DNA from: Natrinema salifodinae | Lineage (GTDB): Archaea; Halobacteriota; Halobacteria; Halobacteriales; Natrialbaceae | Assembly (NCBI RefSeq): GCF_900110455.1 | Contig: NZ_FOIS01000003.1 | Span: forward strand, 1 to 64,000 | Direction: 5' to 3' | DNA: 64,000 nt | Translations under genes and position numbers: made by a program | Shown here: positions 18,291-36,306 of the stretch, piece after piece | Numbering within the stretch: position 1 is the first letter of the stretch | Layout: each line of letters starts with the position of its first letter | Notes under the pieces: generated by a model | What the model was told of the DNA's origin: nothing | What the model saw: only the letters and a program-made list of their open reading frames with translations | Databases searched by the model: none

Positions 18291-18296
18291 TCTATC

Positions 18297-18983
18297 TTAG
18301 GATTCGGCCAGCGCCGCCTCTAGGTGGCTGAGAACCCGCTCAAGGACATCCTCGAGCGCGATCGCGACGGGATCGGTGAACTCGTCGACGGTCATCCCCC
18401 AAGAATCGTAGCCGGGTTCGACGGTGATGATCCGCGTGTCGTCGGAGAGATCGCCGAACGCCGCCGCGATCGCGAGGACGTTCTCGACGGTGTTCGATCC
18501 CATCGCGCTCTCGCCGATGCGTTCGACGAGTTCGTCTTCGGGTATCTCGTACTCACTGGCACCGTACTCGTGGATGGCGCCGGGATTTTCGGAGGGAATC
18601 CCATCGTTCAGTTCGCCGCCCCGTTTCTCGGCGCCGACGAGGAACACGGTCTCGTACTCGCCCGCCGTGATCGTCTGGTAGGCCGCCACAGGGGTGTGAC
18701 TGCAGTCGGCGACCGCGACACCGGGGGGATCCCACTCACAGACGCGGTAGGCGACGACGGTTCCGACCGCCAGGTCGCCGAGCAGCGGATAGCCGACGCC
18801 GGCGACCAGCACGGGATCGTCGCGACTCCCCGCGACAAGGCCCGCTCCGTCGCCCGCCTGGCCGGGCCGGTACGCGTCGTCGAACAGCGGCCCCGACTCG
18901 GCCGCGTCTCGGAGCGCCGCGGCGCGTCCGTCGAAGAGCGGGTCGGTTTCGTCTCCGTTCTCGTCAGCGTGGTCGGGCGTCAT
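18297..18983 (-). CDS. Divergent hydrogenase maturation protease-like protein
   Basis: The 228-residue protein has an acidic N-terminal extension of about 55 residues, then VLVAGVGYPLLGDLAVGTVV, which resembles the GxGNxLxGDDGVG start of M52 maturation proteases. Later strands (VAVADCSHTPVA, YETVFLVGAEKRGGE) and the ending DPVAIALEDVLERVL also fit that fold. The usual second Asp of the DDG motif is Leu here, so metal binding may be altered. It is the last gene of the hydrogenase operon, 50 bases after the large subunit. It may be a specific endopeptidase for the large subunit or a degenerate paralogue used as a chaperone. Confidence 0.6.
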   Translation of the reverse strand: MTPDHADENGDETDPLFDGRAAALRDAAESGPLFDDAYRPGQAGDGAGLVAGSRDDPVLVAGVGYPLLGDLAVGTVVAYRVCEWDPPGVAVADCSHTPVAAYQTITAGEYETVFLVGAEKRGGELNDGIPSENPGAIHEYGASEYEIPEDELVERIGESAMGSNTVENVLAIAAAFGDLSDDTRIITVEPGYDSWGMTVDEFTDPVAIALEDVLERVLSHLEAALAES

Positions 18984-19033
18984 CGTTTGGAGAGATCGTG
19001 GCTGTCATCGTTCGAAACGCGACCGTCACCGAG

Positions 19034-21007
19034 TCAGTCGCCGGAGATGATGTCGCGAATGGCTTCCTCGGCGGGCTGATCGCCGTCGGTGAACGAGCAG
19101 CCACAGGAGGTGACGTCCTCCGTGATCACGTCGCGCTGGCGGTCGGTGTGAAGATGGACCGTACACGGCATGCAGGGGTCGAAGCTCCTGATCGACCGGA
19201 GGATGTCCATACCGGAGAAATCCTCCTCGTCGGTGAAGTCCTCGAGCAGCGGCGTGTTCAACGCGGCCTCCTCGTAGGGACCGGGATTGCCGAAGGGATC
19301 AGTCGGCGATGCCATCCACGTACTCGGCGTGAGGATCTGGTAGGTGTCGATCACGCCGTCCTCGATGACGACGTGGTGTGTGAGGTAGCCGCGACCGGCC
19401 TCCCAGAAACCGACGCCGCGTTGGGTACCCGACGAGGGGACGTCGAACGGTGCGTGGATGTCAGACGCTCCCTGTTTCAGGCGGTCGAGCGCCTCAACGA
19501 ACCCGGTGTAGCAGACGAGCGCGCAGTACGCGATGTGGTAGGCCTTCGCGCGCATCCGCTCGGCGGCGTTCAGCCGCTCAGGGATGTCCCACCGCAGCGT
19601 CATCTCGGGCAGTTCGGTCTCGGGCAGGTGGAGGTTCAGCCCGTCGCCAGTCGGCTCGATGTACGGGTTATCGACCTCCTTGGCCATCGCGGTGATCCAG
19701 TGGCGGGAGTGGGGGCCGGTCTCCATCACCTGCCGGTCCCACCGGGGCGAGGTCCCCCACGTGTACTTCTCACGCCAGGACGTTCCCTCGGGCTTTGGAC
19801 GCGTCTCCTTATTCCAGGGGTGGTACGGGCTGATCGGTCCGCCCGCCGGCGTCTCCGAAAAGCGTGGCCCCTCGTCGTCGGTCCAGTCTTCGTAGAAGGA
19901 GTGGTCGACGAACTCCTCGACGCCCATGTCGATCTCTGTCAAATTCGTCGTCACGAGTTCGCCGTCGATGATGACGCCAGGCGTCGACAACCGGGCCAGC
20001 CCCCACTCGTCGGCGTCCTCGTAGCGGGCGTTGTACGCGTCGGGGTCGTCCCAGATGCCCGTTCCGATGAGGTTCACGGGGCGCTCGCCGACGTGTTCGT
20101 AGTCCTCCAGCTCCGCAAGCAGGAAGTCCAGCAAGTCATCCCAGACGAACGCGATCTTCTTCGCGTAGTCGAAGAAGTGGTTGAGTCGCGTGTAGAATTG
20201 CTGGAACGACGTCCGCGTCAGCGTCGTCGTCAGCCCGCCAGGCGCGATGGTTGAGGGGTGGGGATACTTCCCCAGCATGAGCGACGCCGCCGACCGCGCT
20301 TCGCGGGTGTTCTCGAGCGCCTCGAGGTAGAGTTCTCCCTCCAGCGGGTTCATCGCGGTCATGATCTCGCCGATCGTCTCGTAGCCGTGGACGTCGGCGT
20401 GGGGCGCGCTCGTCTCCATCGCCTGCTCGACCACGTCGGGATTGCTCTGTGAGAGCAGCGATTCCGAGTAGTCCGGGCCGGCGAGCAGGAACAGGTGCAG
20501 CGAGTGGTCGTAGAGGAACGCCGCCGCCTGGCCCATGTTGCGCGCCCAGACGCCCATCGGCGGTGGTTCGACGGGGAATGCCATCTCGAGGGCCATCGAC
20601 GAACACAGCGAGTGGACGGCCCCGCAGACGCCGCAGGCGCGACTCGAGAGGTCGATTGCGTCTCGCGGATCGCGCCCTTCGAGGATGATCTCGTACCCAC
20701 GGAACAGTGTCGCCTGGGAGTGTGCCTCGAGTACCTCCTCGTTCTCGAGATCGGCCTTTGCGTGGAACGCCAGCGCGCCGGCGATACGCGTCACCGGATC
20801 GATGTTCACATCCTTGACGCCCTCGCTCGGTTCCCTCCCACGCTGCGCTTCCTCTTCGGCCACCCGTTCGCCGCCGTTGGTTTCCTGTTTGCCGAGACCG
20901 TTCACTGCCACGCCGTCGTGTTCACCGGGTACGTCGAAGCCCCGCTCTTCGGATCGGATCGGATTTCCGTCGTCGTCGAACTCGATCGGCAGGTTGTCGA
21001 ACGTCAT
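19034..21007 (-). CDS. [NiFe]-hydrogenase large subunit
   Basis: The 657-residue product holds both nickel-binding motifs: RACGVCGAVH with C125, C128 and H132, and DPCMPCTVH with C612, C615 and H618. Internal segments such as FRGYEIILEGRDPRDAI, KYPHPSTIAPGGL, TPGVIIDGELV and DPFGNPGPYEEA resemble the actinobacterial group 1h and related Huc lineage as I remember them. The first 62 residues precede the canonical start (DVNIDPVTRIAG) and open with FDNLPIEFDDDGNP, also present in the preceding small gene. After H618 comes a 39-residue tail containing CGC, longer than usual, presumably removed on maturation. It oxidises or evolves H2 with the small subunit. Confidence 0.95.
   Translation of the reverse strand: MTFDNLPIEFDDDGNPIRSEERGFDVPGEHDGVAVNGLGKQETNGGERVAEEEAQRGREPSEGVKDVNIDPVTRIAGALAFHAKADLENEEVLEAHSQATLFRGYEIILEGRDPRDAIDLSSRACGVCGAVHSLCSSMALEMAFPVEPPPMGVWARNMGQAAAFLYDHSLHLFLLAGPDYSESLLSQSNPDVVEQAMETSAPHADVHGYETIGEIMTAMNPLEGELYLEALENTREARSAASLMLGKYPHPSTIAPGGLTTTLTRTSFQQFYTRLNHFFDYAKKIAFVWDDLLDFLLAELEDYEHVGERPVNLIGTGIWDDPDAYNARYEDADEWGLARLSTPGVIIDGELVTTNLTEIDMGVEEFVDHSFYEDWTDDEGPRFSETPAGGPISPYHPWNKETRPKPEGTSWREKYTWGTSPRWDRQVMETGPHSRHWITAMAKEVDNPYIEPTGDGLNLHLPETELPEMTLRWDIPERLNAAERMRAKAYHIAYCALVCYTGFVEALDRLKQGASDIHAPFDVPSSGTQRGVGFWEAGRGYLTHHVVIEDGVIDTYQILTPSTWMASPTDPFGNPGPYEEAALNTPLLEDFTDEEDFSGMDILRSIRSFDPCMPCTVHLHTDRQRDVITEDVTSCGCSFTDGDQPAEEAIRDIISGD
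20961..20996 (-). repeat. Copy 2 of a 36-base duplicated segment (start of large subunit)
   Basis: These bases encode NLPIEFDDDGNP at the N terminus of the large subunit. They match 34 of 36 bases with the segment at 21258-21293 in the preceding gene, differing only at the 6th and 18th base of the plus-strand reading. The two copies are in the same orientation and both lie at the start of their genes. Confidence 0.9.
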
Positions 21008-21013
21008 GCCATT

Positions 21014-21310
21014 TTAGTTCGTATGTCCGGGTTTCGGTCGTTCGCGTTCGCCGACTCGGCCGGGTCGTTCATCCGAATCGGTAAGTTGCTCGCGGACATC
21101 GCTGGGCATCGTCTCCAAAATCTCCTCGTAGATCGCTTCGGGATCCGATTCGTCCAGCGCCACGTCGTCCGTCACGTCCGCATACCCGCACGCTGACGGG
21201 TGGTCTTCGTCGGCATCCGACGGCCGGTCGACGTCGTCGGCCTCATCCGCGAGGTACGGATTGCCGTCGTCGTCAAACTCGATCGGCAGGTTGCTGAAAC
21301 ACATTTTCAT
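21014..21310 (-). CDS. Small acidic hydrogenase-linked protein of unknown function
   Basis: The ATG at 21310 overlaps the small-subunit stop (ATGA) and gives 98 residues; an ATG two codons later is possible. After MKMC it reads FSNLPIEFDDDGNP, then a very acidic middle with one Cys (SACGYADV) and a C-terminal helix (DPEAIYEEILETMPSDVREQL) ending in a basic tail. I recognise no family. Position between the two catalytic subunits, translational coupling and the shared N-terminal peptide argue for a subunit, scaffold or assembly factor. The actinobacterial Huc enzyme has an extra non-catalytic subunit (HucM), an analogy rather than a homology claim. Confidence 0.75.
   Translation of the reverse strand: MKMCFSNLPIEFDDDGNPYLADEADDVDRPSDADEDHPSACGYADVTDDVALDESDPEAIYEEILETMPSDVREQLTDSDERPGRVGERERPKPGHTN
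21258..21293 (-). repeat. Copy 1 of a 36-base duplicated segment (start of small acidic gene)
   Basis: These bases encode NLPIEFDDDGNP at the start of the 98-residue protein and match the segment at 20961-20996 in 34 of 36 positions. One of the two differences is at a third codon position in a run of otherwise identical codons, so this looks like a duplication rather than convergent protein similarity. Confidence 0.9.
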
Positions 21311-22524
21311 CCACCCCACGTCGGTTCGGGTTGCTCCTCCTCCGCGTAGTTCGAGTCGCGCATGTGCCACCACCGGTAGACGCGCTCTTCGACGCCCGGC
21401 GACTCGTCCCAACGGACCTCGCGGTCCGTCTTCTTGATCGTCCGCTGACGGAGCCTACGCATGACGCCGCCGAGGATCTTCGAGCCGGTCGACGAGATCA
21501 TCGAGCCCGGTGGCGCCTTGAAGTACGGGGTAAACTTGTCCGGGAAGCCGGGCATCGTACAGCCGATGCACTTCCCGCCCATGTTCATGCAGCCGCCGAT
21601 CCCGCCGCTGTTGCGCCGCGACGGCATGTTACACTTCACAACCGGCCCCCAGCAGCCGGGTACCTCGACGAGACACTTTTCGCTGCCGTACTCCTCAGCG
21701 AAGTCGCCCTCTTCGTAGTAGGATCCGCGTTCGCAATTTCGGTGGACGGTCTCGCCGAACAGCCACTTCGGCCGTCCGAGTTCGTCGAGTTCGGGCAACG
21801 GTCCAATATCCTCGACGTAGAACAGGAGGTGCGCCACGGTCTCGATGAAGTTATCTCCGATCGGCGCACAGCCGGGGACGTTGACGACGGGGAGTCCGAG
21901 AACGCTCCGATAGTCCCGTCCGAGGTAGTCCATCGTTCCCATCGCGTCGGTGGCGTTCCCCTTCGCCGCCGGGATGCCGCCCCAGGTGGCACAGGTTCCG
22001 ATCGCGATGACCGCGGCCGCGCCCGGTGCGAGCCGATCGAGCCAGTCGACCATCTTGATTGGCTCGCCCTCCTCCTCGCCGAGGGAGATCCAGTAGCCGT
22101 CGCCGTCGATGAGCCGCTCGTTCGGGACGCTTCCCTCCACGATCACCACGTACGGATCGCGTTCGCCGTTCACGGCCGCCTCGAACTCCTTGACGTACTC
22201 ATCGCCCCACTCAACGGACAGGACGGGGTGGTGGAGTTCGATTCTGGGCAGGTTCGGAATGTCACCCCGCAGCAGGTGCTCGAGCCCCGGTTCCGTCGCC
22301 GAGAGCGCCGCAACCGAACAGCCGTCGCAGCTCTCGCCCGCGAGCCAGTAGGCGTGCAGGACGTCCTCCTCCTCTTTCACTGCCTCGCCTTCTCCGGCCC
22401 GTAATCCCTCCGCTCCCTCCTCGGGTTCCTCGGGCCAGAGAGCGTCCGCTTCCGACTCCGAATCGACGTCTCCTTCACCCGACGGGTCGGACTTCGGGGC
22501 CAGATCGTCTGGAATGCCACTCAT
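21307..22524 (-). CDS. [NiFe]-hydrogenase small subunit
   Basis: The ATG at 22524 (TTG two codons upstream is less likely) gives 405 residues. Twelve ligands for three [4Fe-4S] clusters are visible: proximal C66 and C69 (SCDGC), C178 (GTCATWGG), C219 (PGCAPIGD); distal H261, C264, C284, C291; medial C298, C312, C319, C322. Group 1h enzymes, as I recall, have Asp in place of the second proximal Cys; here it is Cys. The N terminus is a 55-residue acidic extension with no twin-Arg signal, and there is no C-terminal membrane anchor, so the enzyme is predicted cytoplasmic. It is the first gene of its operon. Confidence 0.95.
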   Translation of the reverse strand: MSGIPDDLAPKSDPSGEGDVDSESEADALWPEEPEEGAEGLRAGEGEAVKEEEDVLHAYWLAGESCDGCSVAALSATEPGLEHLLRGDIPNLPRIELHHPVLSVEWGDEYVKEFEAAVNGERDPYVVIVEGSVPNERLIDGDGYWISLGEEEGEPIKMVDWLDRLAPGAAAVIAIGTCATWGGIPAAKGNATDAMGTMDYLGRDYRSVLGLPVVNVPGCAPIGDNFIETVAHLLFYVEDIGPLPELDELGRPKWLFGETVHRNCERGSYYEEGDFAEEYGSEKCLVEVPGCWGPVVKCNMPSRRNSGGIGGCMNMGGKCIGCTMPGFPDKFTPYFKAPPGSMISSTGSKILGGVMRRLRQRTIKKTDREVRWDESPGVEERVYRWWHMRDSNYAEEEQPEPTWGG

Positions 22525-22556
22525 TACCAAACACTAGTGTGGCTGACGGCTGCCAC

Positions 22557-22566
22557 GTTGATAAAG
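22557..22566 (-). promoter_or_regulatory. TATA box of the hydrogenase operon
   Basis: On the minus strand CTTTATCAAC lies about 30-40 bases upstream of the small-subunit ATG at 22524, placing the transcription start near 22535 with a leader of about 10 bases. A perfect palindrome (22572-22587) lies directly upstream, where a regulator or TFB would bind. Confidence 0.6.
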
Positions 22567-22571
22567 ATCCG

Positions 22572-22587
22572 CTTCGGGAAACCGAAG
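22572..22587. promoter_or_regulatory. Palindrome CTTCGG-GAAA-CCGAAG upstream of hydrogenase TATA box
   Basis: A perfect 6-bp inverted repeat with a 4-base spacer lies immediately upstream of the TATA box of the hydrogenase operon. The same arms with spacer CGAA occur at 37385-37400 in the leader of a membrane-protein gene. A dimeric regulator site is possible; this is inference. Confidence 0.4.
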
Positions 22588-22653
22588 TAATAGTGGCACG
22601 GCGGGCGTAAGAGCGACTTAACAGAGCGATAGGGTCTTTCACGTTCCCTCGAG

Positions 22654-23163
22654 TCATCCGTCGACCGACCCGTTCGACCTGAGCTTGTCGATGACCAGTT
22701 CGATATGTTCGACGGCCCGTGGAACCGCCGCGCAAACGGGATCGCTCAATTGGTCCTCGAGATCGTCCGTCTCGTACGGTTCGCAGCCGACCAGCACCGT
22801 CGGTTCCGGCAGCACGTCGAGCGCCTCCCCGAGGACGAGCACCTTCGACGGATCGGTCTGGTGCATGTCGGCCGCGAAGCCGCCGATCTCGCGCTTCGAG
22901 TACCCATCAAGGTCCGGCACGTCCGCGCGTTCGACGTAGAGCGTCCCGGGTTCCTCGTTGCGTTCCATCGCGTCGACCAGAACGAGCGCGTCGTACTCGT
23001 CGAGCAGTTCCTGGGCCATGCTCACGCCGGAGATGCCGACCTCCACGACCTCGACGTCAGAGGGGAGGTCTCGGTCCTCGAGCGCGTCCGCGACCGCGAC
23101 GCCAAAGCCGTCGTCTCCACGCAACAGGTTCCCCATACACGCGACGAGGATCCGTCCGGTCAC
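22654..23163 (-). CDS. [NiFe]-hydrogenase maturation protease (HyaD/HycI family, M52)
   Basis: The GTG at 23163 gives 169 residues: ILVACMGNLLRGDDGFGVAV with the nickel-sensing acidic residue of GDDG, then ALVLVDAME with the second acidic ligand, and DMHQTDPSKVL with the His ligand. The end (PYETDDLEDQLSDPVCAAV) matches M52 peptidases. It should remove the C-terminal tail of the large subunit after nickel insertion. A TATA-like GTTAATAG (plus reading 23188-23195) puts the start of transcription at about the GTG, supporting a leaderless start. The gene lies 123 bases upstream of the small subunit with its own promoter. Confidence 0.9.
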   Translation of the reverse strand: MTGRILVACMGNLLRGDDGFGVAVADALEDRDLPSDVEVVEVGISGVSMAQELLDEYDALVLVDAMERNEEPGTLYVERADVPDLDGYSKREIGGFAADMHQTDPSKVLVLGEALDVLPEPTVLVGCEPYETDDLEDQLSDPVCAAVPRAVEHIELVIDKLRSNGSVDG

Positions 23164-23187
23164 GCGTTCCACTCCGCGAACGTGAGA

Positions 23188-23225
23188 GTTAATAGTTGCG
23201 CTACCAAGGAACACACGTTTATCAG
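23188..23225. promoter_or_regulatory. Divergent leaderless promoters
   Basis: Two TATA-like elements lie back to back: CTATTAAC on the minus strand (23188-23195) about 27 bases from the protease GTG at 23163, and CGTTTATCAG on the plus strand (23216-23225) about 27 bases from the ATG at 23248. Both predict transcripts starting at the start codon. Confidence 0.55.
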
Positions 23226-23247
23226 TCCGGGCGAGGTAATTCGCGTA

Positions 23248-23742
23248 ATGGCTCACGACTCCGCCACGGCCGACGACGGAGACGGCGAGACGCCGAAGGA
23301 GTCTCGTGAAGACGACGATAGCGCGGAGCTTCGCTCCGCGGCCCATTTGAGCGGGCAACGCCCGCGGGAAGAAGCCGTCGACGACGAACTGTTCTGGCGC
23401 GACGAGGTGCTGGAGGCGATGTACTGGATGATCGGCGAGGGGATCGAAGAGGCCGTCGCTCCGTCGGATCTCCGCGGCTTCCTCGACGCGTCGGCCGACG
23501 TCGTCGAGCGGACGTTCTCCGACCTCGAGGCGCGCGATCACGTCCGCGAGACGTTTCGAGGGTACGTGTTCACGGATCACGGCGAGCGAGAGGCTAAACG
23601 CCGGTTCGCAGACGAGTTCGCCGACGTGCAGGGTTTCACCGCCTCGCACACCGACTGCGGCCCGGACTGCTGGTGTCACGACCCCGATCACGCCGAGGAC
23701 GAGTGTCCCTCCGAGGACGATCACCGGCACGCCCACCACTGA
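23248..23742 (+). CDS. Winged-helix-like protein with Cys/His-rich C terminus
   Basis: The 164-residue protein has an acidic N terminus, a central region with winged-helix character (DEVLEAMYWMIGEGI to SDLEARDHVRETFRGYVFTDHGERE, about residues 50-120) and a C-terminal 35 residues rich in metal ligands: HTDCGPDCWCHDPDH, then CPSEDDHRHAHH. Four Cys and seven or so His fall in that tail. A palindromic cassette encodes residues about 26-40. It is divergent from the maturation protease, so a metal-responsive regulator or a nickel-storage role is possible, but I recall similar CGPDCWC ends in haloarchaeal proteins of unknown function, so the link to hydrogenase is unproven. Confidence 0.65.
   Translation: MAHDSATADDGDGETPKESREDDDSAELRSAAHLSGQRPREEAVDDELFWRDEVLEAMYWMIGEGIEEAVAPSDLRGFLDASADVVERTFSDLEARDHVRETFRGYVFTDHGEREAKRRFADEFADVQGFTASHTDCGPDCWCHDPDHAEDECPSEDDHRHAHH
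23323..23365. repeat. Two adjacent palindromes inside the Cys/His-rich gene
   Basis: Bases 23323-23339 are a perfect 7-bp stem with a 3-base loop (GCGGAGC, TTC, GCTCCGC). Bases 23351-23365 are a 6-bp stem with a 3-base loop (GCGGGC, AAC, GCCCGC). They are read in frame as part of a low-complexity linker, the same arrangement as in rnp1. Confidence 0.75.
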
Positions 23743-23844
23743 CTCGAGCGACACCCAACCCGCTGCTGGTCGGATCGAACGAGGTCGATGGATCGCCGTG
23801 ATTTGTCGAGACTGCTGGAGACAATACCTTGTGCATTGGACTCG

Positions 23845-25212
23845 ATGGCTTACCCGATGACGGACGACGCCGGCGACCGGGTCTATTACGTGATCAGCGA
23901 CCTCCACATCGGCGGCGACGAGCAACTCGGACAGGTCGATTTCCTCGACGAATTGCTCGACTTCCTCGAGCGGTTGGAAACGACCGACGAGGACGCGGAA
24001 CTGATCATCAACGGGGACGCGTTCGGCCTCTGGGAGTTCACTGAGATCGAGGGACTGGAAAAGTTCGACGTCCTGGTCGAGAAGTATCCGGCACTGTTCG
24101 AACAGTTCCACGCGACCGGCGAGTCAATTCCGATCACGCTGCAACCGGGCAACCACGACCACGAACTCGCCGCCTACGACGAGTACGTCGAACGCCTCGC
24201 CGAGTACAACGTCGACCTCGTCCGGTCCGAGTCGATTACCCGGTCAGTCGGCGACCGAACGATCTGGTTCGAACACGGCCACCAGCGGGATCTCAACAAT
24301 CGAATTGAGGACTTCGGCAATCCGCACGCGACGCCGATGGGATACTTCTACAACACGCACGTGACGAGCCGGGCCGGCCAGCTGTCCGACCGGGGCCGGT
24401 ACAACTGGTTGAAAGACGTGCAGGCGGTCACACCGACCGAGCGGATGCCGCGCTGGCTCGTCTCGAAGTACTTCTACCGCGAGATGAACCCCTTCCTGCG
24501 GTACGCCGCGGTCCCGTTCCTGTTGCTGTTCAACGCCAGCGTCGTCCTCGCGATGCTCGCGGGGCTCGATCTGGCCGGCGTCTGGACGATGCCGGTCGAA
24601 ACGGCCGACGCATTCCTCGATCGGTTCGGTCTGGCAGGCGCGGCCGTTCACCTGCTACTCACGATCAACGCGGTGATCGTCGGATTGCTATTGCTCGTCG
24701 GGATTCCCGTCTATTTCCTGCTTCGGGATGTCAGGGAGACGGTCGACCGGTTCGGAATCGCCGAGACGGACCTCACGGTCGATCCCGAAGCGCCGTACGA
24801 GCGAGCCGCCCGCGAGGTCTTTGCCGACCATCCGGACACGGCCGTCTTCTGCTACGGGCATACCCACCGACCGTCGATGCGGGAAGTCGAGGACAGGCTG
24901 GTCGTCAACACCGGGACCTGGCTGAAGCGGCTCCACCGCCGGGACGTCGTCACCGGGCACCTCCCCCCGGTCTTCTATCCGTCGTATCAGCTGTGTGTCG
25001 TCCGCATCGAAGCCAACCCCGAGGGCGTCGCGGTCGAATTCGAGGAGATCGAGAAATCGAGTCCGACCGCGACAGAACTCACGCTCACGGAGCGGCTGCT
25101 CACGCTGGGTCGGGCGCCGGATCCTGAATTACCCGACCGAGCGGTCGTCGAGGAAGCGGTGGATGAGTCGGCCCTCGAGCGCTCGAGTGAGCGGTCCGAT
25201 GCGGTCTCGTAA
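23845..25212 (+). CDS. Metallophosphoesterase with membrane segments
   Basis: About 455 residues. The calcineurin-like motifs are clear: VISDLHIGG near residue 15, NGDAFGLWEF near 60, QPGNHDHE near 103 and a late YGHTHRPS with VVNTGTW. Between the catalytic halves two hydrophobic segments (AAVPFLLLFNASVVLAMLAG and HLLLTINAVIVGLLLLVGIP) suggest membrane attachment. Substrate unknown; UDP-diacylglucosamine-type or nucleotide phosphodiesters are family possibilities. An ATG four codons later (23857) is an alternative start. It is followed by a minus-strand gene, so it is probably monocistronic. Confidence 0.85.
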   Translation: MAYPMTDDAGDRVYYVISDLHIGGDEQLGQVDFLDELLDFLERLETTDEDAELIINGDAFGLWEFTEIEGLEKFDVLVEKYPALFEQFHATGESIPITLQPGNHDHELAAYDEYVERLAEYNVDLVRSESITRSVGDRTIWFEHGHQRDLNNRIEDFGNPHATPMGYFYNTHVTSRAGQLSDRGRYNWLKDVQAVTPTERMPRWLVSKYFYREMNPFLRYAAVPFLLLFNASVVLAMLAGLDLAGVWTMPVETADAFLDRFGLAGAAVHLLLTINAVIVGLLLLVGIPVYFLLRDVRETVDRFGIAETDLTVDPEAPYERAAREVFADHPDTAVFCYGHTHRPSMREVEDRLVVNTGTWLKRLHRRDVVTGHLPPVFYPSYQLCVVRIEANPEGVAVEFEEIEKSSPTATELTLTERLLTLGRAPDPELPDRAVVEEAVDESALERSSERSDAVS

Positions 25213-25331
25213 TGACGGGAAGCGACCTCGTGAAGCGTACGGTTGTTTCTCAGACTATTTTCGGGGAACCGTTCCGTCACCGTTACGCCCCCGCTAGCGG
25301 GGGAGACAATATCGATATCGCCGCGGCTCCC

Positions 25332-26123: not shown

Positions 26124-26211
26124 GACCGATAATCCGACGGGAACACGCATAAAACCGAGAGCGGCGCTGTTTCTCACGATACTGTCGATAGCTATGCCAA
26201 ATAGTACGTAT

Positions 26212-26589
26212 TCAGTTATTGCTGCTACCTGTCCCCGGAAGCGGCTCGACTCGAAACACGTAGTCCGCGTAGACCCCATCGAGATTTGCGGGGCTCTCTT
26301 CGGCGGTGTGCTTTCGACACAGGCGGGCCTCTGCCTCGACGGCCCCCTTACCGGTTTCTTCCTGATACCGTTCAAGGACGACGAACGCCGCCCGCTCGTC
26401 GCAGCCGCGCCGATGACACTCGCGAGCGTCCGGATCGTCATCGCGTTTGGTCTCGTCCGTCTCAGTCCCTCTGCCGGGTGGTGGTTCGGCTTCGTGGGCA
26501 CGGTCACGCGTTCGGTCGAGTTCCGACTCTCGCTGGCGGTTCTCTGCGTCGCGGGCCCGCTCGTCTCGGCTCTTTTTCACGTTTGTCAT
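26212..26589 (-). CDS. Small Cys/His protein of unknown function
   Basis: The ATG at 26589 gives 125 residues. The first half is highly charged and helical; the second half has CHRRGCDERAAFVVLERY and later ARLCRKHTAEESPANL, a C-x4-C and C-x2-H arrangement that could bind zinc. The C-terminal segment VYADYVFRVEPLPG looks conserved. Function unknown. It is divergent from the CooC-like gene. Confidence 0.6.
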   Translation of the reverse strand: MTNVKKSRDERARDAENRQRESELDRTRDRAHEAEPPPGRGTETDETKRDDDPDARECHRRGCDERAAFVVLERYQEETGKGAVEAEARLCRKHTAEESPANLDGVYADYVFRVEPLPGTGSSNN

Positions 26590-27501: not shown

Positions 27502-27503
27502 CG

Positions 27504-28094: not shown

Positions 28095-28311
28095 ACGGCC
28101 CTCCCGTCACCTTCAGTTCGGTCTGCGCCTGGATGAAGTGAATGCGGAACGTGAAGATAGTTCGAACGGCAGAGTCCATTGATACCGGTGAATGTCCGGC
28201 TGACCGACGGACGGTGATCTCGTGGCATCGAGCGCCTTATGCTACCACGTATCTTAACCCCAGGTGAACCAAGCGACGGCACAGCGAGGTGGCCGTTGCG
28301 AACGAGATCGA

Positions 28312-29295
28312 ATGAGTGCTCCTACCACGTTCAAACAGCTGTATCGCGAAACGATCCCGTCGATAGCGTCGGTATATGTCGATTCGCATCACCGCCGACC
28401 GGGCGGAACGGGATCTGGATTCGTCTACGATACCGAACACGTGATCACGAACCAGCACGTCGTCGGCGGCGCCGGAGAGGTCGATCTCCGGTTTAACGAC
28501 GATTCGTGGGGTTCGGATCGAGTTATCGGCACTGACGCCCACACGGACCTCGCGGTAATTCGGACCGACGACCTGCCGGCGGATGCAGACCCGTTGTCGA
28601 TCGCAGACCGGACCCCGACGCCTGGCGAGCCAGTCGCGGCGCTTGGAAACCCGATGGGGTTGGACGGAACGATCACAACGGGAATCGTCAGCGGCGTGAA
28701 TCGGTCGTCACCGACGGACAATGGATTCACCATTCCGGACACCGTCCAGACCGATGCGCCGATCAATCCCGGCAATAGCGGCGGCCCGCTCGTCACGCTC
28801 GACAGCGAGGTGGTCGGAGTTAACAGGGCGAAGGCCGGAGAGAATATCGGGTTCGCTATTTCCGCCGCGGTCGTCGCCCGAGTCGTTCCGGAACTCGTCA
28901 CGCACGGTCGATTCAGGCATCCGTACCTGCGGATTCGGACGGTAGACGTCTCCCCCACCGTCGCCGAGGCCAACGACCTGGCGAACCCCCGAGGCGTGCT
29001 CGTCGTAGGCGCCCCGCTCGGCCCCGCGAGCGCCGCGTTGCGAGAGTGTCGCGGAGTCCGCCGGATTCGCGGCCGCGAAGTCCCCGTCGGCGGCGACGTA
29101 ATCGTGGGCATCGACGGCCACGAGATCGACTCCCACGAGGAACTACAACGCTATCTGCTGACCGAAACGCGTCCCGGGCAGACGATCGAGATCGAGGTGC
29201 TCCGAGAGGGACGAGAAACGACCGAGGAGATCGCGCTCGCCGAACGTCCCAGCCGCACTACCGACCCGGCCGAAACCCGCGTTCGGATCGAGTGA
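28312..29295 (+). CDS. HtrA/DegP-like serine protease with PDZ domain
   Basis: The ATG at 28312 gives 327 residues. The catalytic triad is visible: H49 in VITNQHVVGG, D79 in DAHTDLAVI and S156 in NPGNSGGPL. A C-terminal PDZ domain starts near residue 200 (HPYLRIRTVDVSP) and contains VGGDVIVGIDGHEIDSHEEL. There is no signal peptide or membrane segment, so it is probably cytoplasmic or secreted by an unrecognised route. It may act in protein quality control. It stands alone between the CooC-like pair and hypE. Confidence 0.88.
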   Translation: MSAPTTFKQLYRETIPSIASVYVDSHHRRPGGTGSGFVYDTEHVITNQHVVGGAGEVDLRFNDDSWGSDRVIGTDAHTDLAVIRTDDLPADADPLSIADRTPTPGEPVAALGNPMGLDGTITTGIVSGVNRSSPTDNGFTIPDTVQTDAPINPGNSGGPLVTLDSEVVGVNRAKAGENIGFAISAAVVARVVPELVTHGRFRHPYLRIRTVDVSPTVAEANDLANPRGVLVVGAPLGPASAALRECRGVRRIRGREVPVGGDVIVGIDGHEIDSHEELQRYLLTETRPGQTIEIEVLREGRETTEEIALAERPSRTTDPAETRVRIE

Positions 29296-29426
29296 GTCGC
29301 GACCCCTCCGGTTCGATACGGTCGTGATCGCGTGATCGATGAGTTGGCATGAAGATGGGGAACGCAGGTGTGGATACTGAAATAGTCCGGAACGGGGCTG
29401 CGCTGATTATCCTTTGGACGCCGTCG

Positions 29427-30491
29427 CTAGCAGATCCGCGGCGCGGGCTCGCTCGCGGGCTCGCGGAGGTAGCGGTTACCGATTCCGGTGTCGAGAACTA
29501 CTCTGCCGCGGTGGTCGTCGATGGCCTTCCCGATCGCTGCTGCGTTCGTTCCCTTCGGGTGGTCACGTAGTGCGGTGAGGACGTCCTCGGCCGCCGTCGG
29601 GGCGACGCCGAGCACGGCTACGCCTTCGTTGGCGATCTGGAAGGGATCGAGGCCGAGCATCTCGCCGGTGCCCTTCACGTCGCTGGTGACCGGGACGCGC
29701 TCCTCGCGGATCTCGATCCCGACGCCGCTCTTCCTGGCCAGCTCGTTGAGCGCCCCTGCCAGTCCCATCCGGGTCGGATCCTTCATCGCGGTCACGCCCT
29801 CTCCGGCCGTCTCAAGGGCGGCGGCGAGCAGTCCGTTGAGCGGTTTCACGTCCGACTCGAGGTCGCTTCCGAACTCGATCCCCTCGCGTTCGGCGAGCAG
29901 CGAGATACCGTGTTCGCCGACGGAATCGGTGACGATGACGACGTCGTTCGGGGAGAGGCCGGCGTCGGGTGTGACGTGTTCAGCGATGCCGACGCCGGCC
30001 GTATTGACGATTACACCGTCGAGTTCCCCGTTCCCCATCACTTTGGTGTCGCCGGTGACGACCGGCGCGTCTGCCTCCGCGCAGGTCGCCGCCATCGAGT
30101 CGGCGATCCGCTCGAGATTCGCGACCGGGTAGTTCGCCTCGACAACGACCGCACTCGTTAGCCCCCGGACGTCCGTCGCGCCCATCACTGCGAGGTCGTT
30201 GACGGTACCGGAGACGGCGAGGCGACCGATGTCGCCGCCGGGGAAGAACGGCGGATCGATCACGTGGGTGTCGGTCGTCACTACGAGGTTCGCATCGCCG
30301 ATTGGCACGACGGCGCCGTCGTCCATGTCGGCGAGGCAGACGAGCGCGTCAGCGGGGTCCGAAAAATTCGCTGCGAGCGTCTCGTTCACTAGATCCCGCA
30401 TCGCCGTTCCGCCAGCCCCGTGTTTCAGTTCGATTCGCCGCTCATCCTCGCCTTCGGTCTCGTCTGTCGACGGGTCTGTGACATCGCTCAT
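29427..30491 (-). CDS. hypE: Hydrogenase maturation protein HypE
   Basis: The 354-residue protein dehydrates the thiocarboxamide on its own C-terminal Cys to make the cyanide ligands of the NiFe centre. The sequence ends PRIC, the family-specific C terminus with the reactive Cys. The AIR-synthase-like domains are clear: GAGGTAMRDLV, MDDGAVVPIGDANLVVTTD, VSGTVNDLAVMGA and VVTGDTKVMGNGELD. It follows hypD by 19 bases in the hypCDE operon and precedes a divergently placed HtrA gene. Confidence 0.96.
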   Translation of the reverse strand: MSDVTDPSTDETEGEDERRIELKHGAGGTAMRDLVNETLAANFSDPADALVCLADMDDGAVVPIGDANLVVTTDTHVIDPPFFPGGDIGRLAVSGTVNDLAVMGATDVRGLTSAVVVEANYPVANLERIADSMAATCAEADAPVVTGDTKVMGNGELDGVIVNTAGVGIAEHVTPDAGLSPNDVVIVTDSVGEHGISLLAEREGIEFGSDLESDVKPLNGLLAAALETAGEGVTAMKDPTRMGLAGALNELARKSGVGIEIREERVPVTSDVKGTGEMLGLDPFQIANEGVAVLGVAPTAAEDVLTALRDHPKGTNAAAIGKAIDDHRGRVVLDTGIGNRYLREPASEPAPRIC

Positions 30492-30510
30492 CTGTCGGCC
30501 CTCGTATCGA

Positions 30511-31671
30511 TCATATATCCGGTCGACCCCCGTACTCGTGCCAGATCTTGCAGGTTCCCTCGCTGCTCACCATACAGGCTCCGACGGGATCGTCCGGGGT
30601 ACACTCCTCGCCGAACATGTCGCAGTCGGTCGGCTCGGCTGTCCCGGACATGATGTCGCCGCAGATGCAATCGTCAGCGAGTCGCGATGTATCATCGTCT
30701 TCGAGGTGGCCGGTGTCGATATCGAACCGCTCGCGAGCGTTACACTCGGCGTACTCGTCGCGGAGGACGAGGTTGGCACCCGGAATGTCAGCGATGCCGC
30801 GCCACTGGCCGCCGACGGCTTCGAACACCTCCCAGAGCTGTTCCTGAGCGGGCCGGTTCCCCTCCCGCGTCACGCACCGGGGATAGGCGTTCTCGACTGC
30901 CGCCTCGCCGTCGCTGATCATCTCGACCAACTTGGCGATGCCGGCGAGAATATCGAGCGGTTCGAATCCACCGACGACGACCGGCAGCTCGTGGCGGTCG
31001 ACCAAATCCTCGAAGATCCCAGAGCCGGTGATGATCGCGGCGTTGCCCGCGGCGAGGTAGCCCTGAATGTCGGTGTCGGGCATCTCCGCGACGATTTCCA
31101 TCGCCGGCGGGACGTACTTGTGCGCCGAGAGGATCGACAGGTTCGCCGGCGGATCGTCGAGCACGACCGCCGCGGTCGGGGCGGCCGTCGTCTCGAACCC
31201 GGTAGCGAAGAAGACCACCTCGCCGTCTTCCTCTTCAGCGATATCGACGACGTCGGCGGCGCTGTAAACGATTCGGACGTCGGTCCCTTCGGCGCGCGCA
31301 TCGTCGAGCGACTTCGTCGTCCCCGGCACTTTCAGCATGTCGCCGTACGTCGCAACCGTGACGCCGGACTCGGCGAGCGCGACCGCCTCGTCGACCTCCG
31401 GCATATCGGTGATACAGACTGGACAGCCCGGTCCCATGATGAGTCGGACCGAGTTCGGTAGCATACTGCGGATGCCGAACTTGGCGATCGATTGTTCGTG
31501 GCTGCCACAGACGTGCATGATGGTCGCCGGCGGATCCTCGAGACCCTCGCCCAGTTCCTCGAGCGCGTCGGCGATCGCTCGTGCCTTCTCCGGGTCGCGG
31601 AACTCGAGTTCGTTCTCGCCGTCGCCGGTCGGAACGTCCCCCGTCGGACCTCCTGGTGGCGTCTCAGACAT
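30511..31671 (-). CDS. hypD: Hydrogenase maturation protein HypD
   Basis: The ATG at 31671 gives 386 residues. HypD is an Fe-S scaffold for assembly of Fe(CN)2CO with HypC. Motifs seen are MHVCGSHEQSIAKFGIR, MGPGCPVCITDMPEVD, FFATGFETTAAPTAA and the C-terminal Cys set (ECNARERF, CICGDIMSG, CKIWHEYGG) that binds the [4Fe-4S] cluster. The N-terminal 25 residues are an acidic extension. The start overlaps the 3' end of hypC by 8 bases. Confidence 0.96.
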   Translation of the reverse strand: MSETPPGGPTGDVPTGDGENELEFRDPEKARAIADALEELGEGLEDPPATIMHVCGSHEQSIAKFGIRSMLPNSVRLIMGPGCPVCITDMPEVDEAVALAESGVTVATYGDMLKVPGTTKSLDDARAEGTDVRIVYSAADVVDIAEEEDGEVVFFATGFETTAAPTAAVVLDDPPANLSILSAHKYVPPAMEIVAEMPDTDIQGYLAAGNAAIITGSGIFEDLVDRHELPVVVGGFEPLDILAGIAKLVEMISDGEAAVENAYPRCVTREGNRPAQEQLWEVFEAVGGQWRGIADIPGANLVLRDEYAECNARERFDIDTGHLEDDDTSRLADDCICGDIMSGTAEPTDCDMFGEECTPDDPVGACMVSSEGTCKIWHEYGGRPDI

Positions 31672-32068
31672 CGATATCCAACTCCTCGAGGAGGTCTTCG
31701 GCGTCGTCCGCGTCGGCCGGTTCCGCGTCGTCCGCTGTACCGGTGGTCTCTGCCGTGCCAGCGGCGAGTGTTCCGTCGACTGCGTTCGGCGGCACTGTGC
31801 CGCCGGCTTCGAGTTCGTCGGCGACATCCTCGTGCAGCATATCGTCGGGATCACCATCCATGAACGACTCGTACAGCGCCATCGTCTCGTCGATCTCGTC
31901 ATCCGGGATCCGGCGGATAGCGAACCCGACGTGGTTCAGGATGTGATCCCCCGGCTCGACGGGCGCGTCGACCGTGTCGAGCCGCACTTCCTTCTGTACC
32001 CCCCAGAAGTCGACGATCGCCCGCAACCCATCGACCGATTTCACTTCGCCAGGTACTCCGAGACACAT
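31664..32068 (-). CDS. hypC: Hydrogenase assembly chaperone HypC with long acidic tail
   Basis: The 134-residue protein starts MCLGVPGEVKSVDG with the functional N-terminal Cys2 of HypC/HupF and has the barrel segment VQKEVRLDTV and HVGFAIRRI. HypC carries the Fe(CN)2CO intermediate between HypD and the large subunit. The family is usually 75-95 residues; here about 50 extra C-terminal residues are Asp, Glu, Ala and Thr rich. It is first in the hypCDE operon. Confidence 0.95.
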   Translation of the reverse strand: MCLGVPGEVKSVDGLRAIVDFWGVQKEVRLDTVDAPVEPGDHILNHVGFAIRRIPDDEIDETMALYESFMDGDPDDMLHEDVADELEAGGTVPPNAVDGTLAAGTAETTGTADDAEPADADDAEDLLEELDIDV

Positions 32069-32226
32069 GGGCCTGTGTTAGTTAGTACCACGCGAACAAA
32101 GTAGTTTGCCGTGAGCGGGTTGACGCGTCTCTCCGAAACAAGAAACTTCGATCAAATTCAGCCCGTAGGACGTAGTCTGTAGGTGATACGCTATTCTTCT
32201 CCCCCTCGTTTTTCAGCCGGCGTGTG

Positions 32227-33222
32227 ATGCCGACTAGCATGGTGGACGCGAATTCGACCGAATCACCGCTCGAGGCGGCCGCCGGCACCGCTGGCCCTCA
32301 CGTGATCGACGCGTTCAAAGTACTAAGCGACGAGACCCGTCTGGCCATCTTGCTAGCGCTGTGGGATGGCTACGAGCCGTTCGCCGGCGACGACGCGCTG
32401 TCGTTCTCGGAGTTGCTCGACCGAGTGGACTACGACACCTCCGGGAACTTCAGCTATCATCTCCAAAAGTTGGAGGATCACTTCGTGGAGTCGACGCCCG
32501 AAGGGTATCGGTTGAAGCAGGCCGGCCACAAGATCGTCCGTGCGGTAATCGCTGGCAGGGGACTCACGGACGCCACACTCGAACCGACCGAAATCGACGC
32601 CGACTGCACGATATGCGGCGAACCGCTCGCTATCGCGTACGAGGACGAGCACCTATACACAATCTGTAGCGGGTGCGGCGGGAAATTCGGCGCTGACAGC
32701 GAGAAACTTCCGGGGACAGTCATGGGGTTCGCGTTTGATCCGGCCGGCCTAGCACGTCCGACCGCCGAGGAAATCTTCGCCGCCTCGGTATTCCGCGCGA
32801 TGCAGAAGTTCACCATGCAGATGGGCGGCCTGTGCCCCGACTGCTCTGGGCCGGTCGATAGTTCGATGAACATCTGTGAGGAACACTCACCGAACGGAAT
32901 TTGTTCGAACTGCGGACGAAGAGACCAGGTCCAAGCACGTTGGGTCTGTACCGTCTGCAAGAATTCCGGACACGGTCCACCGGGGGGAAACCTGGTTTTG
33001 CATCCGCGCGTCGTGGCGTTCTATGCGGACCGCGGACTCGATATCGGATACGACGCGACCGATTTCGAGACGATCGTCGAGGTTCTGGAAGCGATGTCGA
33101 ATCACGATCAAGAGGTCGTTTCCGCGGAACCGCCACGCGTCCGCGTCACCGTCCGCTACAGGGGCGACGAACTACGACTACTGATCGACGAATCGATGAA
33201 CGTGATAACGGTCGAAGACTAG
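32227..33222 (+). CDS. ArsR-type winged-helix regulator with zinc-ribbon-like motifs
   Basis: About 331 residues. The N-terminal winged helix is clear (IDAFKVLSDETRLAILLALW, SELLDRVDYDTSGNFSYHLQ, residues about 24-95). Three or more Cys pairs follow: DCTICGEP, ICSGCGGK, LCPDCSGP, ICSNCGRR and VCTVCKNSGH, suggesting two or three zinc sites. The C-terminal part has VRVTVRYRGDELRLLID. This architecture is common in haloarchaea. It is divergent from hypC, so it could regulate hydrogenase maturation, which is inference from position. The ATG at 32239 is an alternative start. Confidence 0.8.
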   Translation: MPTSMVDANSTESPLEAAAGTAGPHVIDAFKVLSDETRLAILLALWDGYEPFAGDDALSFSELLDRVDYDTSGNFSYHLQKLEDHFVESTPEGYRLKQAGHKIVRAVIAGRGLTDATLEPTEIDADCTICGEPLAIAYEDEHLYTICSGCGGKFGADSEKLPGTVMGFAFDPAGLARPTAEEIFAASVFRAMQKFTMQMGGLCPDCSGPVDSSMNICEEHSPNGICSNCGRRDQVQARWVCTVCKNSGHGPPGGNLVLHPRVVAFYADRGLDIGYDATDFETIVEVLEAMSNHDQEVVSAEPPRVRVTVRYRGDELRLLIDESMNVITVED

Positions 33223-33441
33223 TCGACGAGATCTATCGCGCCTGGTTCACGAACCCAGCCGTGACGAGCGTCCGTGCTCGTCCGACGGCAACTCGGCGAT
33301 TCTCCCGGATCGTCTACTAGAATTTCGTATAGATAACAATTATTGTCGAGGCTGCCAAACTCTCTTGCGTCCGTCGCAAACGATCGGGGGTGTCGGGTCA
33401 CGACGAGTACCCGTCACGCGGCGGTGGAGGGATACGTACTA

Positions 33442-33738
33442 ATGCCAACCTATATCGCGCTTCACAATCACCGAAAGGAGGGTTCGCAGACGATCAAACA
33501 GCTGCCTGAGCGACTCGAGCAGGCCACGGAAATCGCACACTCGATGGACTGCGACGTCGAGTACTACCTCACCAACGGCCAGTACGACTCCGCAGTCATC
33601 GTTGATGCGCCCGACGAACGGACTGCGAAACAATTAGCGCTCGGTGTCACCAGTACCGGAACTGTGACGACCGAGTTCCAGCGGGCATTTCACGAATCCG
33701 AACTCGAGGATTTAACCAACGGAATCCCCACGCCGTGA
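33442..33738 (+). CDS. GYD-domain protein
   Basis: The ATG at 33442 gives 98 residues with the GYD family pattern: PTYIALHNHRKEGSQTIKQL, a CDVEYYLTNGQYDSAVIVDA hairpin containing GxYD, and ALGVTSTGTVTTEFQRAF. GYD proteins are small ferredoxin-like-fold proteins without a firm biochemical role. GGAGG lies about 11 bases upstream of the ATG. It sits between the ArsR-type regulator and hypF. Confidence 0.82.
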   Translation: MPTYIALHNHRKEGSQTIKQLPERLEQATEIAHSMDCDVEYYLTNGQYDSAVIVDAPDERTAKQLALGVTSTGTVTTEFQRAFHESELEDLTNGIPTP

Positions 33739-33831
33739 AGTGGCCTCACTCGATTTTTTGGAATTGGCCAGTCACCTAGTTCGAACCGGTTCTCGTCCGT
33801 ATTCGACCCCTAAAACGTGGTAGATAGTACC

Positions 33832-36306
33832 ATGATTATGAGGATGGACGGCGAACTCGTCCGTATGGAACGCGCCACCGTCCGCGTGACCGGCGTCGTC
33901 CAGAGCGTCGGGTTTCGGCCGTTCATCTACCGACGAGCGGTCGACCACGACCTGCGGGGAACGGTCCGCAACCTCGGTGATGCCGGCGTTCGCATCGAAC
34001 TCGAAGGATCGGTCGAGGGGGTCGACGCGTTTCTCGCGGATCTACGGGAGCGCTCGCCGCCGCTCGCGAGCGTGGAAACGGTCCGCGTCGATCGGGAGTC
34101 GGTTGTCGATCCCGCGTTCGGGACCTTCGAGATCGTCGACTCCGCCGACGGCGGTAGTGACGCCGCCGGTGGTGGTACGATCCCGCCGGACACGGCCACC
34201 TGCGAGCGGTGCCTCGCCGACATTCGCGATCCGGATTCGCGGTATCACGATTACTGGGCGACCTCCTGCGTCGACTGCGGGCCACGGTTCACCGTCGTCG
34301 AGTCGTTGCCGTTCGACCGGCCGACGTCGTCAATGGCGGCGTTTCCGATGTGCGACGCCTGCCGCGAGGAGTACGAGGATCCGGCCGACCGCCGATATCA
34401 CGCTCAGACGATCGCGTGTCCGAACTGCGGTCCGACGCTCCGCTACGGCCGATTTCCCGTCGATACCGGCACCGTCGATGTCTCGTCGACCGACTCGAGC
34501 GCGCCGGCTGAGGGACGCGATCCGTTTCCCGACGAACTCGATGCGCCGACCGACGACCGCGCGGCGATCGAGAGCGCCGCCGAGGCGCTCGGTCGCGGGG
34601 AAACGGTCGTGCTGAAGGGGATCGGCGGAGCGCACCTCGCCTGCGACGCGACCGACGCCGACGCGGTCGAACGGCTCCGCAAGCGGACCGGCCGTCCCGC
34701 GAAACCGTTCGCCGTCATGGCGCCGGACGCCGGCGCGGCCGCCTCGTTCGTGGACCTCTCGGAGACCGAACGGGCGGCGCTCGAATCACCTCGCCGGCCG
34801 ATCCTGCTGGTCGAACGGAACCGATCTCGATCGCCGGCTGATTCGAACGGCGATGACGACCGGCTCGCGTCCGGCATTGCACCCGGGCTCCACACCGTCG
34901 GCGTGATGCTTCCGTACTCGGGCGTCCACCACCTCCTGTTCGATGCGATCGACGGGCCGCTGGTGATGACCTCCGCGAACCACCCGGGAAAGCCGATGCT
35001 GACCGCCAACGGACCGCTGGTCGACGGCCTCGCCGACGTCGCCGACGGCGCTCTCCTCCACGATCGGCGCATCGTCGCCCGCTGTGACGATACCGTCGCC
35101 CGCGTCGTCGACGGCGACCGACGCCTCGTTCGACGGTCACGCGGGTTTACCCCGGTACCCGTTCCCCTCGACCTCGAGGGCGTCGAGCCGGGATCGACTT
35201 CCGTCCTCGGAACAGGGCCGGAACTCGACGTGACCGCTGGCGTCCTCCACGAGGGCGACTGCTATCTCACTCAGTATATCGGAGACGTCGACGATCTCGA
35301 CACCTTCGCGTATTTCGAGGACGCAGTCGATCACCTGCTCGACGTCACGGGGTTGGAATGTCCGTCGATCATCGCCCACGACTCCCACCCCGAGTTCAAC
35401 ACCACCGACTACGCGAGCCGGTTGATCGCAGACGGGACCGTCGACCGCAGTGTCGCGGTCCAGCACCACCACGCTCACGCCGCGAGCGTGCTCGCCGAAC
35501 ACGGTCGCGAGCGCGCGATCGCACTGACGCTCGACGGCGCGGGCTACGGCCCGGACGGCACCGTCTGGGGCGGCGAGGTGCTGGACACGTCGGTGGCGAA
35601 CTACGAACGAGTCGCCGGGTTGACCCCGGTGCCGATGCCGGGCGGCGATCGGGCGACGCGCCACCCCGGTCGGTTGACCGCGGGGCTGCTGTACGCGAAC
35701 AGGACGGATACGGATGCCGTCGAACGGACGCTCGTTCGACGCGACGTGCCGTTTCCCGGTGGTTTCGAGGAACGTAACCTCGTGTGCCAACAGCTCGCAG
35801 CCGGCGTCAACACCCCCGCGACGAGCAGCGCCGGACGCTTCCTCGACGCCGTTAGCGCCCTGCTCGGCGTCTGTAGCGAACGGCGCTACGAGGGCGAACC
35901 GGCGATGGAACTCGAGGCGGTCGCGGCCGGCGGAACGGCGATTGACGTCGACGTCCCGTTCGCGCGGGTCGACGATCGACCGGCGGTGGACACGCCGGTG
36001 CTCTTCGACGACCTCGTCGAACTGATCGAGGAGGGACGACCTCCAGCGGACGTCGCGGCCACCGCCCAGGCCGCGCTGGCGCGGGGCCTGGCGACCCTCG
36101 CCGTCGACGCGGCGAGCAATCGAAATCGGGACGCGGTCGCGCTGACCGGGGGCGTCGCGTACAACGATCGTATCGCGACGCGGATCCGCGAGCGGGTCAC
36201 CGAGGCGGGGCTCGCGTTTCTCGGCAACGAGCGCGTCCCGCCAGGCGACGGCGGGATCGCCTACGGACAGGTCGCGGTAGCCACTGCCCGGGCATCTCAG
36301 GAGTGA
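33832..36306 (+). CDS. hypF: Carbamoyltransferase HypF
   Basis: About 824 residues with the full HypF order: acylphosphatase domain (RVTGVVQSVGFRPFIYRRA at the start), two zinc fingers (CERCLADI with CVDCGPRF; CDACREEY with CPNCGPTL), a YrdC-like domain (VVLKGIGGAHLACDATD, RPAKPFAVMA) and a Kae1-like domain (HHHAHAASVLAEHG, TGGVAYNDRI). It converts carbamoyl phosphate to the thiocarboxamide on HypE. Alternative ATGs at 33838, 33844 and 33865 all keep the acylphosphatase domain. A TATA-like CCTAAAAC near 33809-33816 points to a start near 33838. It is transcribed opposite to hypCDE. Confidence 0.95.
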   Translation: MIMRMDGELVRMERATVRVTGVVQSVGFRPFIYRRAVDHDLRGTVRNLGDAGVRIELEGSVEGVDAFLADLRERSPPLASVETVRVDRESVVDPAFGTFEIVDSADGGSDAAGGGTIPPDTATCERCLADIRDPDSRYHDYWATSCVDCGPRFTVVESLPFDRPTSSMAAFPMCDACREEYEDPADRRYHAQTIACPNCGPTLRYGRFPVDTGTVDVSSTDSSAPAEGRDPFPDELDAPTDDRAAIESAAEALGRGETVVLKGIGGAHLACDATDADAVERLRKRTGRPAKPFAVMAPDAGAAASFVDLSETERAALESPRRPILLVERNRSRSPADSNGDDDRLASGIAPGLHTVGVMLPYSGVHHLLFDAIDGPLVMTSANHPGKPMLTANGPLVDGLADVADGALLHDRRIVARCDDTVARVVDGDRRLVRRSRGFTPVPVPLDLEGVEPGSTSVLGTGPELDVTAGVLHEGDCYLTQYIGDVDDLDTFAYFEDAVDHLLDVTGLECPSIIAHDSHPEFNTTDYASRLIADGTVDRSVAVQHHHAHAASVLAEHGRERAIALTLDGAGYGPDGTVWGGEVLDTSVANYERVAGLTPVPMPGGDRATRHPGRLTAGLLYANRTDTDAVERTLVRRDVPFPGGFEERNLVCQQLAAGVNTPATSSAGRFLDAVSALLGVCSERRYEGEPAMELEAVAAGGTAIDVDVPFARVDDRPAVDTPVLFDDLVELIEEGRPPADVAATAQAALARGLATLAVDAASNRNRDAVALTGGVAYNDRIATRIRERVTEAGLAFLGNERVPPGDGGIAYGQVAVATARASQE

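Follow-up and report, generated by a model that had tools for sequence, protein, structure and literature searches.

Which kind of [NiFe]-hydrogenase does a haloarchaeon carry, and could the enzyme let it scavenge H2? We addressed this question in Natrinema salifodinae, using bases 1-64000 of contig 3 of its 4.27-Mb genome (the window). The hydrogenase found there is probably a cytosolic uptake enzyme of the group 1l type, present as a distinct haloarchaeal variant. That the [NiFe]-hydrogenase locus is genuine is confirmed by two complete subunits, HypC, HypD, HypE and HypF, and a maturation protease; PF00374 has no other match in the whole genome. Homologues were collected by subunit alignment from a genome collection of 84,980 species. 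Nine haloarchaeal loci or sequences were compared, from seven Halobacteria genomes and two haloarchaeal metagenome-assembled genomes (MAGs).

The catalytic subunits

19034..21007, minus strand: large subunit, HylL-like, 657 amino acids; N-terminal peptide MTFDNLPIEFDDDGNP, without a cysteine at position 2 (Cys2); conserved CxC in the tail past the DPCMPCTVH cleavage motif
21307..22530, minus strand: small subunit, HylS-like, with 12 Fe-S ligands and the proximal motif CDGC; start probably ATG 22524

The large subunit matched Pfam NiFeSe_Hases with an expect value (E) of 1e-72, and its RxCGxC and DPCMPCTVH motifs are intact. The small subunit contains Oxidored_q6 and NiFe_hyd_SSU_C domains, and all twelve Fe-S ligands are present (C68, C71, C180, C221, H263, C266, C286, C293, C300, C314, C321 and C324). 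C71 is the sole one of the twelve not common to the group 1h rows, and from this pattern the small subunit is predicted to carry three [4Fe-4S] clusters. No RRxF motif of the twin-arginine translocation (Tat) pathway was found in the first 60 residues of the nine haloarchaeal or 45 bacterial group 1l small subunits. A preliminary description of the window had reported both NiFe motifs, the 12 ligands and the lack of a Tat signal, and all three observations held. No catalytic or cluster ligand shows an inactivating change.

Assignment to a hydrogenase group

The same description took the enzyme for the actinobacterial high-affinity type, of group 1h or 2a. Among solved structures, the 1h enzyme HofKG of Cupriavidus necator was the best match for both the large subunit (500 bits; next, 191) and the small subunit (364 bits; next, 152), hence the 1h guess. 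Since no 1l structure is among the solved matches, this means just that HofKG is the nearest solved relative. A nearer set of non-haloarchaeal homologues shows 48-55% large-subunit identity (residues 1-640), as against 41-45% for true 1h enzymes. This set spans Chloroflexota, Gemmatimonadota, Bacteroidota, SAR324, Acidobacteriota, Pseudomonadota and Actinomycetota, together with one Aeropyrum MAG. We infer that it is group 1l because its taxa match those of published 1l carriers, which include Bacteroidota, SAR324 and Rhodobacteraceae (PMC10305171) and also desert Actinobacteriota (PMC7677003).

Sequence features common to the clade in this analysis, which are not a published definition of 1l, set the groups apart. 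Among small subunits, the proximal motif reads CDGC in all nine from haloarchaea and in 44/45 from bacterial 1l, but CDGD in 23/23 testable 1h sequences. DPCMPC combined with a C-terminal CxC tail occurs in 9/9 haloarchaeal and 56/56 1l-type large subunits and in none of 25 from 1h, which have DPCLPC (marker DPCLPCGVHMY) and no CxC. Locus gene content was scored with seeded profiles. Group 1h loci have DUF5947 and NifU-like genes and mostly also DUF6084 and HypA/HypB, whereas 1l-type loci, without DUF5947 or HypA/HypB, encode a winged-helix Cys protein and a CooC-type ATPase as well as an additional protease that is inactive. The haloarchaeal loci match the 1l-type content in all three of these genes, which are absent from 1h loci; DUF5947, DUF6084, HypA and HypB were not found in the hydrogenase cluster of the window.

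It is therefore very unlikely that this is a true 1h hydrogenase. The match of both subunits to HofKG speaks for it, but the proximal Asp is replaced by Cys, the 1h marker genes are missing, identity is higher to the other clade, and the 1h sequences form a clade of their own, with 100/100 support, that excludes the haloarchaea. HofKG (PDB 5aa5) resembles the haloarchaeal enzyme in being a cytosolic heterodimer with 12 ligands and three clusters and no Tat signal (41-42% large-subunit identity). It differs in its Asp proximal ligand, in its DUF5947, DUF6084 and NifU-like genes and HypA plus HypB, and in having no CooC-type ATPase, inactive protease paralogue or CxC tail. What survives of the earlier assignment is a cytosolic group 1 uptake hydrogenase of the 1h/1l branch. 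Group 2a (Huc) was rejected, as the large subunit scores 115 bits there compared with 500 for HofG. The F420-, NAD- and energy-converting groups, placement in which the preliminary description would have counted against its proposal, were ruled out by structure matches, domain scores and the tree.

Tree position and missing membrane proteins

Several results weigh against a 1l-type assignment. In a large-subunit tree of 58 sequences, an analysis already suggested in the preliminary description, all nine from haloarchaea group together (support 98/92), yet this clade branches outside bacterial 1l plus 1h (89/78) and not within 1h. Constraining the haloarchaea to group with bacterial 1l costs 1.25 log units (approximately unbiased test, p 0.33), so that this grouping is not rejected, but it is not recovered either; moreover, the root leans on a very long outgroup branch. 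The haloarchaeal loci also lack a part of the usual bacterial 1l locus. Five consecutive proteins of about 100 amino acids, with one membrane helix each, are encoded in 49/55 non-haloarchaeal loci, a feature observed in the loci and not a published definition of 1l; the genes sit between or directly beside those for the small and large subunits, and fewer distinct families were resolved in some actinobacterial loci. None of the nine haloarchaeal loci has these five genes. As for H2 uptake itself, bacteria with a 1l enzyme did not consume H2 substantially in the case of two isolates (PMC10305171).

On this tree the haloarchaeal enzymes thus appear as a lineage that branches off deeply where 1l and 1h separate, and we call them 1l-type because of shared features rather than tree position. 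They could instead belong to neither group and make up a new, deep subgroup of their own, which has kept ancestral features (the Cys proximal ligand and no membrane proteins); the Aeropyrum form would then be another lineage of this kind. The branching order favors this alternative, as do the absence of membrane proteins from the Aeropyrum genome as well, its single TM3 match being marginal, and the combination of 1l marks with a DUF6084-like gene in the Aeropyrum locus. We nevertheless regard it as rather unlikely. Haloarchaea and bacterial 1l have in common the leader peptide and CxC tail of the large subunit as well as the genes for the CooC-type ATPase, the inactive protease and the winged-helix Cys protein; besides, the 1l grouping is not rejected under the constraint, and the root depends on the long outgroup branch. 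The Aeropyrum locus itself (L095, 9887-13880) looks intermediate between 1l and 1h: it encodes CDGC, the CxC tail, a CooC-type ATPase and an inactive protease beside the DUF6084-like gene, and its membrane-protein matches are absent or marginal.

Three of the membrane-protein families, TM1, TM3 and TM4, do not seem to have moved elsewhere. Genome-wide searches for them in seven haloarchaeal genomes gave no convincing match and one marginal one (E 0.005, in genome G263), whereas in bacterial controls outside the models TM1 and TM3 were matched in 3/3 and TM4 in 2/3. A putative relay gene of bacterial 1l, coding for a helical-domain protein with a terminal Rieske or NifU-like domain, is present in 42/55 non-haloarchaeal loci and was found in 0/9 haloarchaeal loci. 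Rieske proteins are encoded elsewhere in the haloarchaeal genomes, none near the cluster, and the electron relay may be encoded in trans.

A leader peptide shared by two genes

20945..21001, minus strand: 57-nt direct repeat, copy 1 (81% identity); opens the large-subunit gene and codes for the leader peptide
21242..21298, minus strand: 57-nt direct repeat, copy 2, at the start of the 96-residue protein gene
21014..21304, minus strand: 96-residue protein, beginning MCFSNLPIEFDDDGNPYL; the leader peptide of the large subunit recurs at its N-terminus, with Cys2 kept; in all nine haloarchaeal loci

Bacterial 1l large subunits start with MCF(K/E)NLP(I/V)EFD, and Cys2 is present in 54/55; the sole exception is the Aeropyrum MAG sequence as cut here, whose full open reading frame (ORF) also starts with MC. 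In all nine haloarchaeal large subunits the ..LP.. leader is kept and Cys2 is lost. A small gene that precedes the large-subunit gene in haloarchaea encodes MC(F/L/M)..(L/F/I)P(I/V)EFD, and in 9/9 loci it lies between the small- and large-subunit genes, where bacteria place the five membrane-protein genes. In the window, the starts of both genes form a 57-nt direct repeat. The simplest reading is that the leader was duplicated and that one copy then lost its Cys.

The start of the 96-residue protein also resembles the MC start of HypC, which is a lead only. Separately, two starts resembling those of large subunits, MCFKNLPIEFD and VCFKNLPVEFD, occur in an Acidimicrobiia MAG locus (L071, at 10001 and 1912), which possibly encodes two 1l-type hydrogenases.

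Maturation

18297..18983, minus strand: inactive endopeptidase paralogue with L/G/G in place of the metal ligands; kept in 1l-type loci and in every haloarchaeal locus
22654..23172, minus strand: maturation endopeptidase of the HycI/HupD family with D/D/H metal ligands; C-terminal part of a long ORF (22654-24111)
26731..27501, plus strand: putative CooC-type nickel-inserting ATPase, CxC aligned to CooC1; probably stands in for HypA/HypB
29427..30491, minus strand: hypE, C-terminal Cys present (equivalog/Pfam match)
30511..31671, minus strand: hypD (equivalog/Pfam match)
31664..32068, minus strand: hypC (equivalog/Pfam match)
33817..36306, plus strand: hypF (equivalog/Pfam match)

HypC, HypD, HypE and HypF are intact, with equivalog or Pfam scores well above the cut-off. 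The preliminary description had listed these genes together with protease genes; the hyp genes and the protease at 22654-23172 stand, but the product of 18297-18983 keeps none of the three metal ligands of the protease family and is thus probably not a protease. The ligand columns were set by a HybD reference sequence, and the neighboring true protease reads D/D/H in them.

Among solved structures, the ATPase matched CooC1 of the CO dehydrogenase pathway best (140 bits, with the CxC aligned; next, 58 bits). HypA was not found in the complete host genome, and HypB gave sub-threshold matches only (28.5 bits against a cut-off of 121). The ATPase gene is present in most bacterial 1l loci, whereas HypA/HypB occur in no 1l-type locus examined, as against about 20/25 1h loci. 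A CooC-type ATPase is therefore likely to replace HypA/HypB across the whole 1l-type branch. The pattern in the bacterial loci L049-L103 likewise suggests a branch-wide change in nickel insertion, and raises the question of whether a CooC-type ATPase can replace HypA/HypB in [NiFe]-hydrogenase maturation.

Proposed function

In the 1l-type reading, the large/small heterodimer would oxidize H2 while the cells grow or starve. Electrons would travel along the three [4Fe-4S] clusters and then probably enter the aerobic respiratory chain; an O2-tolerant enzyme would be expected. HypCDEF would assemble the Fe(CN)2CO center, the CooC-type ATPase would take over nickel insertion from HypA/HypB, and the C-terminus of the large subunit would be cut by the active endopeptidase (22654-23172). 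High-affinity H2 oxidation is likely by kinship, as enzymes of this kind allow certain bacteria from deserts, Antarctica and the sea to subsist on the trace H2 of air.

Bacterial group 1l (PMC10305171, PMC7677003) is alike in sequence (48-55% identity, CDGC, DPCMPC with the CxC tail, NLPIEFD leader) and in the ATPase, inactive protease paralogue and winged-helix Cys genes of a locus free of HypA/HypB. The haloarchaeal variant is unlike it in having neither the five membrane proteins nor the Rieske/NifU-like gene, in placing Cys2 on the separate 96-residue protein, and in one additional private accessory gene (25332-25934). This contrast opens the question of what role the membrane and Rieske/NifU-like proteins have, as haloarchaea do without them. 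A bolder reading, somewhat less likely than not, is that haloarchaea use an untethered trace-gas hydrogenase in which the leader Cys peptide, now a separate protein, acts in trans and electrons exit by a new route, either through the private accessory protein or directly to a soluble carrier or quinone.

Absence of a membrane tether and of a relay gene from the cluster, together with a patchy distribution, would also fit another purpose, such as releasing H2 in fermentation or sensing it, or an imported enzyme that has fallen out of use and is decaying. This seems improbable, because the catalytic and cluster ligands are all intact, the maturation set is full, the relatives are respiratory uptake enzymes, and the gene set is kept in six other genomes and two MAGs from at least three families, at 67-91% large-subunit identity.

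The HydABC enzymes of sulfur-respiring natronoarchaea (Natrarchaeobaculum sulfurireducens), classed as group 1a in strains that make no aerobic use of H2 (PMC6176080), are also haloarchaeal group 1 uptake enzymes with a compact hyp cluster. They show about 32% identity and, unlike the present locus, have HypA/HypB and a cytochrome b subunit; as the preliminary description had it, no cytochrome b gene is in the locus of the window. Atmospheric H2 oxidation in archaea was shown only recently, in Thermoproteota (PMC11018855). Because the same 2024 paper mentions that certain halophiles, for example Halopiger salifodinae, encode hydrogenases clustering with high-affinity 1h and 1l, a 1h/1l-like enzyme in haloarchaea is not new; the anatomy of the variant was not found in the literature searched, nor did that paper yield a gene-level or functional analysis of the H. 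salifodinae hydrogenase, which, judged from its description and not from sequence, plausibly belongs to the clade studied here. The locus defines the gene set and the strains for asking whether aerobic haloarchaea scavenge H2, and with which electron acceptor.

Other accessory genes

23248..23742, plus strand: winged-helix-like protein, C-terminus rich in Cys; gene present in 7 haloarchaeal and 46 non-haloarchaeal 1l-type loci and in no 1h loci
25332..25934, minus strand: private accessory protein, start approximate; in exactly the 7/391 Halobacteria genomes with the hydrogenase and the two haloarchaeal MAG loci
27504..28094, plus strand: conserved neighbor of 196 amino acids from a wider Natrialbaceae family; the locus copies form a separate subfamily

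The preliminary gene list had missed four conserved genes (21014-21304, minus; 23248-23742, plus; 26731-27501, plus; 25332-25934, minus). No member of the 25332-25934 family was found in the other 384 Halobacteria genomes. AlphaFold2 models of this protein and of the 27504-28094 product, from two sequences per alignment, had a mean predicted local distance difference test score (pLDDT) of 52 and 45, respectively. Compared as profiles with the DUF5947, DUF6084, NifU-like, membrane and winged-helix families, the accessory proteins of haloarchaea gave no match and so do not resemble diverged replacements. Two genes lie between hypC and hypF (32224-33738), one for a winged-helix regulator (DUF7347/DUF7351) and one for a GYD-domain protein; neither had a match in the other haloarchaeal hydrogenase loci, some of which are partial.

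Distribution and genomic setting

14961..44400, strand not applicable: segment with the whole cluster, missing at the equivalent secY-adjacent site in three congeners compared; ends approximate

[NiFe]-hydrogenases had been called uncommon in Halobacteria, and a genome survey bore this out: this one is present in 7/391 Halobacteria genomes, plus the two MAGs, and in 0/20 congeners listed. The closest homologues (91%) are from another genus of the same family. The cluster lies in a segment of about 29 kb beside secY; at the three congener sites compared, the sequence passes from about window base 14960 directly to about 44400 or beyond. The distance from secY to adk is 38 kb in this genome and about 8-19 kb in congeners that have both genes on one contig. 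The hydrogenase cluster therefore occupies a lineage-specific segment, either gained in the host or lost in its relatives. No mobile-element signature was apparent at the segment ends. A CoxABC oxidase had been placed at 48-52 kb as a possible electron sink; COX2 was confirmed at 51329-52414, but outside the segment, in the core region common to congeners. The secY-adk interval, with lengths between about 8 and 38 kb in this group of congeners, resembles an insertion hotspot within a neighborhood of housekeeping genes.

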